DNA of 64,000 bases from Fodinibius salinus (GTDB taxonomy: Bacteria > Bacteroidota > Rhodothermia > Balneolales > Balneolaceae): contig NZ_VNHY01000002.1 in assembly GCF_008124865.1 (NCBI RefSeq), forward strand, positions 620,001 to 684,000, given 5' to 3'. Below are positions 20,699-25,814 of this stretch, in pieces. Position 1 is the first letter of the stretch. Every line of letters starts with the position of its first letter. The notes under the pieces are model-generated. The model was not told the DNA's origin and did no database searches. It saw nothing but the letters and a program-made list of their open reading frames with translations. Made by a program: the position numbers and the translations under genes.

Positions 20699-21739
20699 AT
20701 GAATATTCAGGTTCGGCATATTTCCACCTTTCTTAACCAATGGGCTCCCCCCAGTACCAAACTAGATTATGACAACGTCGGGCTCCTTGTCGGCGATCCG
20801 GATCAAGAGATTTCACGTGCGCTAACCTGTCTGGATGTAACACTGGATGTTGTTGGCGAAGCCATCCAGAATGATTGCGATCTGATTGTTGCCCACCACC
20901 CGCTCATTTTTAACGGTATTGATCGTATAAATCCCACAAATGAGCAGGGTAAAATCACTTTTAAGCTTATCAAAAATGATATTGCGCTCATTGCTGCTCA
21001 CACTAATCTTGATGCTGCGCTTGATGGTGTATCATTTGTGTTGGCCCAGCAGTTAGGGCTCGAGAATCTGCAGTTTTTAGATAGCAGCTATAATATCAGC
21101 CGTAAGATTGTACTTACCACCGACCATTCTGATGAAGATTCAGTACTCAAGCTTCTCAATTATTATTCGGCTGAGGAAGCTCATTATTATGAGGTAAAAG
21201 GCAAGAAGGATGGCCAGCGAACCTATGAAGCTATCATGGATGAGCATCATGTAGCGGATTTAAAAAGTGAGCTTGAAAAAAACGGATTGTTGCATGAAGG
21301 TAGCTTTCAAGTGATGGAGGTTGCGAGCCCCTCTAATAACGTAGGTATGGGGGTGGTTGGATTTTACCGTAACAAAGGATTGACGAAACAGCAATTTTTA
21401 GATGGCATTGCCGATGCATTGAATGTTAAGGCTGTACGCTATTCAGGTTCTGTGGATCGCATTAAAAAGGTAGCTGTTTGCGGTGGAGCGGGAGTTTCGC
21501 TAGCACGGCAGGCAGTAGGACAAGGTGCGCAGGCCTTTGTGACATCAGATATTAAATACCACGATTATTTTACCGATACCGATGACTTTTTACTGATTGA
21601 TGTAGGACATTATGAAAGTGAAGTGCCCATTGTGGCAGCACTAAAACAAGAACTTACCGAAGCTTTTGAACAGCTGGATGTTTTTGAAACAGGGATTAAT
21701 ACGAATCCTATGCAGGTTTTTATACCTGACAATAAATAA
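20699..21739 (+). CDS. Nif3-like dinuclear metal centre protein
   Basis: The 346-residue product belongs to the Nif3/YbgI family (GTP cyclohydrolase I type 2-like), toroidal hexamers with a two-metal site of uncertain function. The metal ligands are visible: VAHHPLIF (His66, His67), AAHTNLDAA near residue 100, and DVGHYESE near the C-terminus. The insertion between the two halves (about 125-235, like the YqfO insert) makes it longer than YbgI, as in Bacillus YqfO. The start at 20699 matches the family's beginning and overlaps a 12-codon upstream frame in ATGA. The next gene follows by 34 bp. Confidence 0.92.
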   Translation: MNIQVRHISTFLNQWAPPSTKLDYDNVGLLVGDPDQEISRALTCLDVTLDVVGEAIQNDCDLIVAHHPLIFNGIDRINPTNEQGKITFKLIKNDIALIAAHTNLDAALDGVSFVLAQQLGLENLQFLDSSYNISRKIVLTTDHSDEDSVLKLLNYYSAEEAHYYEVKGKKDGQRTYEAIMDEHHVADLKSELEKNGLLHEGSFQVMEVASPSNNVGMGVVGFYRNKGLTKQQFLDGIADALNVKAVRYSGSVDRIKKVAVCGGAGVSLARQAVGQGAQAFVTSDIKYHDYFTDTDDFLLIDVGHYESEVPIVAALKQELTEAFEQLDVFETGINTNPMQVFIPDNK

Positions 21740-21773: not shown

Positions 21774-22508
21774 ATGGAAGAAGTACTTCAACAGTTAGCT
21801 AATCTTCAATATATCGACAGCAGAATTGATGAGCTTAAACAGCTGCGGGGTGATCTACCGGAGGAAATTCTCGATATAGAGACTGATATAAATCGATTTG
21901 AGGCTAAAATTGATCGGCTAGAGGAAGAGAAAAAAGACCTAAAGGTTGAAAATGATAACCTCGAGCTGGAGATCAAAGATGCCGAAAATAAGATGGAAAA
22001 ATATGAAGAACAGCAGATGTCGGTCCGTAATAATCGAGAGTATGATGCGCTGACTAAAGAGATTGAGTCTCAAAAGCAGATTATTGAGAACTCACAATCT
22101 CGAAAAGAAGAAATTGAGAAGCGCCTTCAAGAAATTGACCCCCAGATGGAAAAGATTCAAGAGCAGCTGGAGGACACTAAAGAGCTCTACGAGGAAAAAC
22201 AGGAAGAGCTTGAAGAGGTAAAAGAAAATACTCAGAAAGAAGAGGATATGCTTGAGGAAAAGCGTGAGGAGGTTGAGAAAGATATCGACGAGCGTTACCT
22301 AAAGAGTTATAATCGTCTTCGCAATGGCCTTTCAAACGGTCTTGCTGTTGTTCCGATGGAAAAAGGAGCTGCCCTTGGAATGGCATTGCCGCCGCAAACA
22401 CAAGTAGAAGTTCGTCATAAAAACAAGATTATCATTGATGAAAACAGCGGACGTATTGTAGTGCATGAGTCCTTTTTTGAAACGGCTGAAGAAGAACTGT
22501 CGCTCTAG
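21774..22508 (+). CDS. Long coiled-coil protein of the zinc-ribbon (CdsZ/zf-RING_7) family, cysteines lost
   Basis: Residues 1 to about 175 form an uninterrupted Glu/Lys-rich antiparallel coiled coil. The C-terminal 55 residues align with the C4 zinc ribbon of this family (LPPQTQVEVR, KNKIIIDENSGRIVV), but the positions normally held by two CxxC pairs are other residues; the second pair reads Asp222 and Ser225. The whole protein has no cysteine. Relatives in Bacteroidota are linked to stress or RNA/DNA binding, but the role here is not known. It pairs with the Nif3-like gene 34 bp upstream, a frequent gene couple, and ends at a strong terminator. Confidence 0.85.
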   Translation: MEEVLQQLANLQYIDSRIDELKQLRGDLPEEILDIETDINRFEAKIDRLEEEKKDLKVENDNLELEIKDAENKMEKYEEQQMSVRNNREYDALTKEIESQKQIIENSQSRKEEIEKRLQEIDPQMEKIQEQLEDTKELYEEKQEELEEVKENTQKEEDMLEEKREEVEKDIDERYLKSYNRLRNGLSNGLAVVPMEKGAALGMALPPQTQVEVRHKNKIIIDENSGRIVVHESFFETAEEELSL

Positions 22509-22538: not shown

Positions 22539-22579
22539 AAAGATGTACCGCATCGACTTAGATGCGGTATATCTTTTTT
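22539..22579 (+). terminator. Strong Rho-independent terminator
   Basis: A 16-bp stem (22539-22554 with 22561-22576, one G-U pair) and a 6-nt loop GACTTA are followed by TTTTTT. It ends the Nif3-like/coiled-coil transcript 30 bp after the stop codon. Confidence 0.93.
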
Positions 22580-22766
22580 CAACATTCTTACTAAGAAATT
22601 TATTTCGCTTCTTCCCTATGGTACAGAACAAGATATTTATTAGTGGGGAGTAGCTTACTATCACTTCTCGAGATGGATACTCATTATAGCAGTTTACTGT
22701 TATGATTAGGCTGCTAAATTGTTCCATCAAATAAAATATTCCGAAGATTTTTGTATATTTAATAAT

Positions 22767-23105
22767 GGATGATCGGGCAACCGCTCACCTGTCAGGTGAG
22801 AGGAAAGTCCGAACACCAACGAGTACTGTGTTTCCTAACGGGAAGATTCGGGCAACCGGATAGAAGAAAGTGCCACAGAAAAATAAACTACCCGGCATGT
22901 ATGCTGGGAAAAGGTGAAAAGGTGAGGTAAGAGCTCACCGTCCCGCATCGCAAGGTGGGGAGCAGGGCAAACCTCACAGGGTGCAAGCTCATGTAGGTCG
23001 TACGCCGCTCGTCGTTATACGGCCGGGTGGAGTGCTTAAGTTCCGGGGCGACCCGGGAATTAGATAAATGATTGCCTCTGACAGAATTCGGCTTACAGAT
23101 CATCC
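22767..23105 (+). ncRNA. rnpB: RNase P RNA, bacterial class A
   Basis: The catalytic RNA that cuts 5' leaders from pre-tRNAs. The universal core is clear: GAGGAAAGTCC near 22799-22809 (P4 5' strand region), AGGGTGCAAGCTC-like joining region, GGCGACCCGGG, and AGAATTCGGCTTACA at 23083-23097. The 5' GGATGATC (22767-22774) pairs perfectly with GATCATCC (23098-23105) to close helix P1, which fixes both ends. Length about 339 nt is normal. A TATATTTA box at 22754-22761 may be the promoter -7/-10 element. Short reading frames inside are not genes. Confidence 0.96.
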
Positions 23106-23119
23106 CATGAAATTATATC

Positions 23120-24559: not shown

Positions 24560-25336
24560 TTAAGATTTGATGTAGGTTTCAGGATCTTGTCGGTAAAACT
24601 CACTCAGTTGATGATACAGTTTGGGGTGTTGATTCTTAAGTTCTGTGGGTCTCTCAAAAAAGCATTCAGTTATAACGGCAAAAAATTCTGCTAAGTTTGT
24701 AGCGCCGTAAGAATCCAGCAGTGTCTCTCTGTTTCGCTGCAAATCAGAAACAAATTGTTGGTACTCATCGCCAACGACTCTGGCCCAAGACAGGAATTGG
24801 GATTCCTCATATTCGTCTTCTACTTGGCTGGTAGCCCCGTATTCATAATCCAGCTGGTGGGCAAATTCATGGAATACCAGGTTTTGTCCATCGTGGATGT
24901 CACGTGCGCCATTTTGAACCTGATCCCATGCCAGAACAATAGTTCCCCGGGACCAGGCCTCGCCATGTCTCTGCTGGAACCCTTCTTCCACAAAAAAACT
25001 GTTGTTCCGGTTTTTTATTTTAGCTACATAAGGCTTGGGATACACGAGAACCGATCGCAAATCATTATAGACAAACGAATAGTCATCAGTGCCGAGGATC
25101 AGGATGCAGGCTTGGGCAGCAATGGAAACACGAATTTTATCCGTAATTTCTAGTCCGGCACAGCCTTCAAAATTTGTTTCATTCAGAAATATAGTAATGA
25201 GCTCTTTTAATTTTTTCTGGAGCCCACCGGGCAGATGCTGTATGTAGGAAACGTTTTCAGAAAGAATGGATTCCCATTCTTGGGGAAAGGAACGTTTTGC
25301 AATGCGTTTTCGGCGCCAACTGGTAAACCCAAACAT
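24560..25336 (-). CDS. Zinc peptidase of the MtfA (M90) family
   Basis: The 258-residue cytosolic protein has the zinc motif HEFAHQLD (His156, Glu157, His160) and the later Glu-rich helix NLAEFFAVITECFFE that supplies the third ligand. In E. coli MtfA binds the Mlc repressor and controls glucose uptake; no Mlc or PTS genes are seen here, so that role may not apply. It follows smpB by 7 bp on the same strand and is likely co-transcribed with it. Confidence 0.92.
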   Translation of the reverse strand: MFGFTSWRRKRIAKRSFPQEWESILSENVSYIQHLPGGLQKKLKELITIFLNETNFEGCAGLEITDKIRVSIAAQACILILGTDDYSFVYNDLRSVLVYPKPYVAKIKNRNNSFFVEEGFQQRHGEAWSRGTIVLAWDQVQNGARDIHDGQNLVFHEFAHQLDYEYGATSQVEDEYEESQFLSWARVVGDEYQQFVSDLQRNRETLLDSYGATNLAEFFAVITECFFERPTELKNQHPKLYHQLSEFYRQDPETYIKS

Positions 25337-25343
25337 GGAGTGG

Positions 25344-25814
25344 TTACATATTTACTTTATAGGACCCTTTGTACTTGCGATCCAGTTCGCGCTTCATATC
25401 ACGTTCTTTAATGTCCTGGCGCTTGTCGTGCTTCTGTTTACCCTTGGCAATGCCAATTAAGACCTTGGCATACCCTTTTTTAAAATAGAGCTTGAGCGGG
25501 GCCAGCGTATATCCCTTTTTATTAACGGCTTTATCCATATCACGAATTTCACGCTTGTTAAGAAGTAGCTTGCGTTCCCTGCGCGGATCGTGGTTTTCAA
25601 AAGAACTGTGCTTGTACGGCTTAATATACATATCCCGTAGCCATACTTCCCCATCTTTGAGGTAGGCAAATGCTTCGCTGAGACTAGCCTTGCCGTTACG
25701 CAGTGACTTCACTTCGGTACCTCGTAAAACAAGCCCGGCCTCGTACGTTTCCTCAACATGATATTCGTGCCGTGCCTTCCGGTTTTTAATGGTTGGTGTG
25801 GAATTGTTGGACAT
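25344..25814 (-). CDS. smpB: SsrA-binding protein SmpB
   Basis: SmpB escorts tmRNA to stalled ribosomes in trans-translation. The 156-residue product has NRKARHEYHVEETYEAGLVL (split across 10-30), GTEVKSLRNGKASLSEAF, and the C-terminal basic tail with KGKQKHDKRQDIKERD that inserts into the mRNA channel. The length is standard. No tmRNA gene was found in the window. The MtfA-like gene follows by 7 bp. Confidence 0.97.
   Translation of the reverse strand: MSNNSTPTIKNRKARHEYHVEETYEAGLVLRGTEVKSLRNGKASLSEAFAYLKDGEVWLRDMYIKPYKHSSFENHDPRRERKLLLNKREIRDMDKAVNKKGYTLAPLKLYFKKGYAKVLIGIAKGKQKHDKRQDIKERDMKRELDRKYKGSYKVNM

Follow-up and report, generated by a model that had tools for sequence, protein, structure and literature searches.

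A DUF164 zinc-ribbon protein without cysteines in Fodinibius salinus, and graded loss of the zinc-site cysteines among its relatives

The locus and its gene content

The window analysed here is a stretch of 64,000 nucleotides from Fodinibius salinus (assembly GCF_008124865.1, contig NZ_VNHY01000002.1, positions 620,001 to 684,000). It encodes a COG1579/DUF164 protein, which stands between a NIF3/DUF34 gene and the RNase P RNA gene (Table 1). The original prediction had this reading frame right, both in frame and in coordinates, and the product of 244 residues contains no cysteine at all. Further along the window, a minus-strand M90 metallopeptidase gene adjoins smpB (24560-25336 and 25344-25814).

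Table 1. Features of the DUF164 locus (window coordinates) and ribosomal protein matches elsewhere in the same genome (coordinates beginning with G000)
Feature	Coordinates	Strand	Evidence or remark
COG1579/DUF164 (CT398/HP0958-like) protein, 244 aa, 0 Cys	21774..22508	+	ORF reading, Pfam, phmmer
Coiled-coil hairpin, residues 1-170	21774..22283	+	Predicted helices 2-83, 87-170; CT398_CC 19.7 bits, below cut-off
C-terminal ribbon region, residues 171-244, metal ligands gone	22284..22505	+	PF02591 match to residues 202-229
First-knuckle remnant G198-M203 (A200, Cys1 position; M203, Cys2 position)	22365..22382	+	141-protein alignment
Second knuckle D222-R227; Cys3 replaced by Asp, Cys4 by Ser	22437..22454	+	Alignments, codon reading
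NIF3/DUF34 protein, upstream	20699..21739	+	PF01784 250.2 bits
Terminator-like hairpin 3' of the ORF	22546..22569	.	One site, scored on minus strand; 2.0 expected in shuffles, weak
RNase P RNA (rnpB), downstream	22765..23111	+	RF00010 234.9 bits
L36 match, own genome (L196)	G000:C6:11643-11756		Only one; no cysteine in matched part
L31 match, own genome (L193)	G000:C1:618169-618372		Only one; no cysteine in matched part
S14 match, own genome (L197)	G000:C6:6695-6856		Only one; no CxxC pairs

Family identity and predicted structure

The assignment to the zinc-ribbon coiled-coil (DUF164) family, made from the sequence of the window, is borne out by near-full-length phmmer matches to CT398 (PDB 4ilo; E 4.1e-9, residues 1-232) and HP0958 (PDB 3na7; E 1.2e-6, residues 5-237). 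The LPPQ and GRIVV motifs that had been named as family signs are present, and the protein aligns and groups in trees with cysteine-bearing homologues. Both Pfam matches fall below their curated cut-offs, with 25.3 bits for PF02591 (Zn_ribbon_9, the C4-type zinc ribbon; cut-off 29.1) and 19.7 bits for PF24481 (CT398_CC, the coiled coil; cut-off 27). A phmmer search of the PDB with the last 74 residues alone, taken as far as E 1, matched nothing.

The predicted structure has the N-terminal coiled-coil hairpin and C-terminal ribbon region of the COG1579/DUF164 architecture. Mean pLDDT of this full-length model is 83, with residues 197-202 below 50 and the ribbon part of low confidence; the secondary structure predicted for the ribbon region runs helix, strand, helix, strand, strand. 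The model matched CT398 at a Foldseek E of 6.7e-8, and VIA-align returned HP0958, CT398, and MSMEG_4306 at Z 13.8-14.4 over 223-230 residues, in a comparison where unrelated helical chains reached Z 12.9 and the score came mostly from the helices. A ribbon-only model (74 residues, mean pLDDT 77) found HP0958 only at a Foldseek E of 2.0, and its VIA-align matches included no DUF164 family member. As to the original suggestion that the fold had moved to a metal-free form, the full-length model overlays the family, and the isolated ribbon found no clear match. Since unrelated chains score as high as Z 12.9, the ribbon model is of low confidence, and no clear ribbon-only partner emerged, we grade it as no more than likely that the ribbon fold is kept without zinc.

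Loss of the zinc-site cysteines in the window protein

The C4 type described by PF02591 is built on two CxxC pairs, and none of these four cysteines is found in the window protein. At the second pair stand D222 (codon GAT at 22437) and S225 (codon AGC at 22446), and codons and alignment alike confirm the replacement already proposed. The first pair, for which no substitutes had been specified, aligns with A200 and M203, the latter followed by a stretch two residues shorter; all four expected cysteines have indeed been replaced. Spacing between the second and third sites is 18 residues, and it is 20 in 38 of 54 proteins outside the loss groups. Comparison of codons indicates that a change from Cys to Asp takes two base changes. 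Outside the loss groups the cysteines are the rule, as had been assumed: all four are present (CCCC) in 54 of 54 proteins there, a sample skewed towards high PF02591 scores and not a census. With these ligands missing, the ribbon of the window protein would be metal-free.

Distribution across the class and phylum

The search of relatives recovered DUF164 in 36 of 38 genomes (the two misses, G019 and G037, are 78 and 82% complete), and the class search recovered it in 144 of 145 (all but G114); both totals include the own genome. PF02591 scored over its cut-off in 194 of 247 genomes, a passing score not implying four cysteines. The nearest copies in the contig scan belong to named records of Fodinibius and Aliifodinibius. 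Of the 24 named loci, A1/A2 used all but the incomplete L071, hence 23.

We aligned 141 proteins of the phylum, hand-picked and thus no census. Thirty loci (L092-L121) were the best PF02591 scorers and some others were chosen for low scores; L001-L004, L035-L071, L088 (partial), L123, and L125 were omitted, as were L138, L141, L144, L150, and L189 as repeats. All four site cysteines are present in 61 of these 141 proteins. The families of this analysis carry the codes f1 to f49, among which f1-f5 are called Balneolales-type after named records identical with or close to some of their loci. In f1-f5 the third site is Asp in all 34 proteins and the fourth is Ser in 33 and Thr in one; 29 of the 34 have no site cysteine, and Cys1 alone is kept in the remaining five (f2, f4, and f5). 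Meanwhile, families f7-f19 of the class display a different residue pattern. Here Cys3 alone is kept in 22 of 25 proteins, with Thr (once Ser) at the fourth site, and the other three (L082, L180, and L190, all f16) carry Ser-x-x-Asp and no site cysteine. Both proteins of f6, a family of the same class, are CCCC. The spacing between the second and third sites is 18 in 59 of 59 proteins of f1-f5 and f7-f19 as against 20 in both f6 proteins; therefore, a shorter first knuckle accompanies the loss.

The loss had been read as a mark of this organism, and it is instead fixed across the order, among the proteins sampled, and partly across the class. Chance is rejected, as the Asp-x-x-Ser/Thr pattern is fixed in all proteins of the order examined. 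Outside the class, Asp-x-x-Ser occurs in 17 of 17 proteins of f28, f30, and f37, in three of six of f38, and in one of three of f42, the remaining f38 and f42 proteins being CCCC. Proteins with Asp-x-x-Ser are not always free of cysteine, as those of f38 retain Cys at the second site and that of f42 at the first. L146 (G234, f42), a far relative, resembles Balneolales both in its DENSGR motif and in a first knuckle with a gap of two residues; its two family mates are CCCC.

We also looked for a cysteine-bearing paralogue in the own genome (98.5% complete), which had been raised as a possibility, and found none: there is no second PF02591 place at E < 0.01, three others standing at E 0.09, 0.31, and 8.1, all below cut-off. 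With a single such place, a switch between zinc and zinc-free paralogues is rejected for this genome. A 632-residue frame gave a weak match to the coiled coil only (residues 3-87, E 8e-4), and like ones occur in G065, G066, and G128; we take these to be chance.

Repeated origin of the Asp-x-x-Ser pair

A tree was built from the coiled coil only, leaving out the ribbon. On this tree the Asp-x-x-Ser label needs six changes. Well supported branches make five of them unavoidable, and these five include a later change to Asp-x-x-Thr inside the order, in L185 (a 1.5-Mb genome). Subtracting that change, and with Cys taken as ancestral, leaves at least four independent replacements of Cys-x-x-Cys by Asp-x-x-Ser on the coiled-coil tree. 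A single clade of the 27 rows with Asp-x-x-Ser or Asp-x-x-Thr is rejected, at a cost of 152 log units (p-AU 2e-45), for a group defined after the data had been seen. These AU tests used 98 of the 141 rows, thinned per family and leaving out L147, L168, L169, and L170; long end branches, including that of L146, were flagged. A single origin for f28, f30, and f37 is not rejected (p 0.45). One zinc loss in the class after the f6 split is possible: the grouping that corresponds to it appears in the best tree, at a support of 64/39.

A change from Cys to Asp takes two base changes and yet recurs, and this repeated arrival at Asp therefore points to selection on structure. Acquisition of a cysteine-free copy from outside is not favoured, since gene order and tree place the gene as native.

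Neighbouring genes and possible function

The upstream NIF3 gene lies on the same strand as DUF164 in 123 of 143 loci, a count in which some places were entered twice. Five of the 20 misses, those of f22, are loci where the overlap of about 60 bases slightly exceeds what the count permitted. The upstream search at L082 (f16) yielded no NIF3 gene. In the window, the description of the NIF3-like neighbour as a metal-binding protein finds support, its putative metal ligands being kept (HH at 66, HTNLD at 101, and DVGHYESE at 301). As the expected residues are kept, a tie between the DUF164 loss and an altered NIF3 site is rejected. COG1579 is given as the commonest operon partner of NIF3 in the accessible text of PMC8469502.

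Downstream, rnpB follows DUF164 in 15 of the 16 class loci tested (the miss being L032) and in none of four outside the class. The RNase P RNA gene of Borrelia burgdorferi likewise neighbours DUF164, according to the accessible part of PMC3372290. The same part of that paper describes how replacement of Cys202 or Cys223 of H. pylori HP0958 by Ser greatly reduces RpoN levels, so that zinc is needed for the job of at least one relative. RpoN was detected in 99 of 100 class genomes, G015 being the only one without it, so that an RpoN-related job has not simply vanished from the class; a tie between the DUF164 loss and loss of RpoN is rejected on the same count. If the window protein serves RpoN, it does so without a zinc site of the H. 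pylori type.

Zinc economy as a possible cause of the loss

Low zinc or oxidative conditions were the driver named originally: in lineages exposed to scarce zinc or oxidative stress, dispensable ribbons such as that of DUF164 would have been stripped of their zinc. We compared ribosomal proteins and DnaG at their expected zinc-ligand positions, along with the presumed zinc form of S14. In 21 genomes, L31 and L36 both lack CxxC in nine of nine with a broken DUF164 site and in five of 12 with a CCCC site, a difference with a one-sided Fisher p of 0.007, uncorrected for kinship. In the two f6 genomes L31 has four cysteines and DUF164 is CCCC, both proteins having broken sites in the five remaining class genomes of the comparison, and the S14 match of the own genome has no CxxC pairs.

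Against this stands a comparison that takes relatedness into account: among four independent pairs on supported branches, one differs in L31 and none in L36, which leaves the test no power. CxxC-less L31 and L36 are widespread regardless, in 16 of the 21 genomes each, and PMC3087516 tabulates zinc-free (C-) forms of both for Bacteroidetes, together with S14, L33, S18, L28, and S4. L36 already lacks CxxC in the f6 genomes, whose DUF164 has four cysteines. Furthermore, the own genome retains the zinc ligands of DnaG and has no zinc-switch pair of paralogues. We consider zinc economy a weakly supported cause, possible but rather unlikely. Besides the longer DnaG-type zinc-ribbon ORF at G000:C1:883060-883341, the genome has another at G000:C4:146269-146559 (L194), with an open frame of 266 residues.

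The replacements in the ribosomal proteins are diverse. Among 16 L36 sequences they are Ser..Asp in eight, Ser..Cys in six, and Asn..Asp and Ala..Asp in one each; among 16 of L31 they are Ser..Ser in seven, Asp..Asn in five, Asp..Ser in three, and Thr..Ser in one. We tentatively raise the idea that Bacteroidota possess a metal-free substitute for the zinc knuckle that can be used again and again, two residues drawn from Asp, Ser, and Asn taking the place of Cys-x-x-Cys in zinc-stripping lineages: Asp-x-x-Ser at least four times and, in f16, Ser-x-x-Asp in DUF164, and similar pairs in L31 and L36. The part-converted relatives, with Cys3 or Cys1 alone, would be living intermediates on the way from a metal-dependent to a metal-independent fold. 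This idea was doubtful from the start and we marked it down slightly further because Ser..Ser and Ser..Cys are as common in L31 and L36.

A proposed mechanism for a zinc-free ribbon

Collectively, we judge it quite likely that this is the only COG1579/DUF164 protein of the genome, inherited in place between NIF3 and rnpB, whose zinc site was lost stepwise as Cys-x-x-Cys became Asp-x-x-Ser, and whose ribbon is functional and probably metal-free. The ancestors would have shed the site in steps. Relatives retain one relict cysteine that differs between groups, Cys3 in f7-f19 and Cys1 in f2, f4, and f5, beside a first knuckle two residues shorter, and the window family retains none. The side chain of Asp222 may replace the Cys3 sulphur as acceptor of hydrogen bonds from the backbone in the tight turn that precedes G-R-I, and the hydroxyl of Ser225, in the place of Cys4, would close the turn. 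Both the Ser-x-x-Asp of f16 and the Cys-x-x-Thr of f7-f19 fit this scheme, in which the pair would hold the turn by hydrogen bonds. The ribbon could thus stay shaped for binding a partner without zinc, and NIF3 is a candidate for that partner.

We consider it improbable that metal binding persists at the site, with Asp222, Glu223, and other residues as ligands and with either a lower affinity or a different metal. There is a parallel in the degenerate one-cysteine zinc ribbon of TFE-alpha in the halophilic archaeon Haloferax, which still binds zinc weakly according to the accessible text of PMC5861453, and none of 24 aligned sequences departs from D222 or E223. However, the window protein offers no cysteine and its ribbon no invariant histidine (His215 and His231 vary), and Ala and Met occupy the two site positions of the first knuckle. 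Conservation of E223 extends to the cysteine forms (136 of 141 rows) and so calls for no new role.

The metal-free ribbon that we favour is probably in use, judging from codon comparisons. In eight comparisons within the Fodinibius group, dN of ribbon codons 189-231 is 0-0.058 and that of the coiled coil 0.068-0.127, the ribbon having the lower value in all eight, with synonymous sites near saturation. The 24 sequences that share D222 and E223 also share S225, G226, R227, I228, and V229 without exception. This is strong purifying selection, from which use of the ribbon probably follows. A ribbon in decay, with the coiled coil working alone, is therefore very hard to credit: the absence of all four ligands would suit decay, but the lower dN in every comparison and these seven invariant residues of the second-knuckle region speak against it. 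Finally, the chance that a different protein merely resembles DUF164, as sub-threshold Pfam scores and a ribbon without a PDB sequence match might suggest, is negligible given near-full-length phmmer matches to CT398 and HP0958, conserved neighbours, and trees that include cysteine-bearing homologues.

Novelty and comparison with known systems

Cysteine-less DUF164 proteins have been known since 2011. In the accessible text of Pereira et al. 2011 (PMC3372290), 43 of 349 DUF164 proteins lack one or more cysteines, mostly in Actinobacteria and Bacteroidetes. Our literature search, with subscription papers mostly outside its reach, returned no description of the Balneolales form. As far as these searches reach, the new elements are this form with its shortened first knuckle, the graded series within one class, and the repeated rise of Asp-x-x-Ser.

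These findings have implications for both annotation and the study of metal sites. A single class contains four-, one-, and zero-cysteine forms of one orthologue, for the most part with the same neighbouring genes, which opens the transition from a zinc-held to a zinc-free domain to study in natural steps. The label "C4 zinc ribbon" is wrong for the DUF164 proteins of Balneolales, and a role based on the zinc site, such as RpoN protection in H. pylori, is not transferable to them unchanged.

Among known systems, CT398 of Chlamydia trachomatis resembles the window protein in its coiled-coil hairpin, C-terminal ribbon, and near-full-length homology. It retains cysteines, partly visible in the alignment and presumably forming its zinc site, whereas the window protein has none. 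HP0958 (FlgZ) of Helicobacter pylori shares both the architecture and the upstream NIF3 gene, the latter according to the accessible part of PMC3372290. That source reports that Cys202 and Cys223 of FlgZ, the second and third site cysteines, are needed for normal RpoN; their counterparts in the window protein are Met203 and Asp222. The C- forms of L31 and L36 are alike in that CxxC pairs are replaced largely by Asp, Ser, or Asn, but they are unrelated proteins and have long been known, as the accessible text of PMC3087516 indicates. The closest parallel in the second knuckle is the DUF164 of Flavobacteria, of the same family, with no site cysteine and an Asp-x-x-Ser pair, its motif being given as SXXS-X20-DXXS in Pereira et al. 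2011 (PMC3372290); 14 proteins of f30 and f37 display this motif in our alignment. Unlike these, the window protein has a first knuckle of the Ala-x-Gly-Met type and an X18 spacing, two residues shorter, and the flavobacterial loss and that of the window protein are separate events on the tree.
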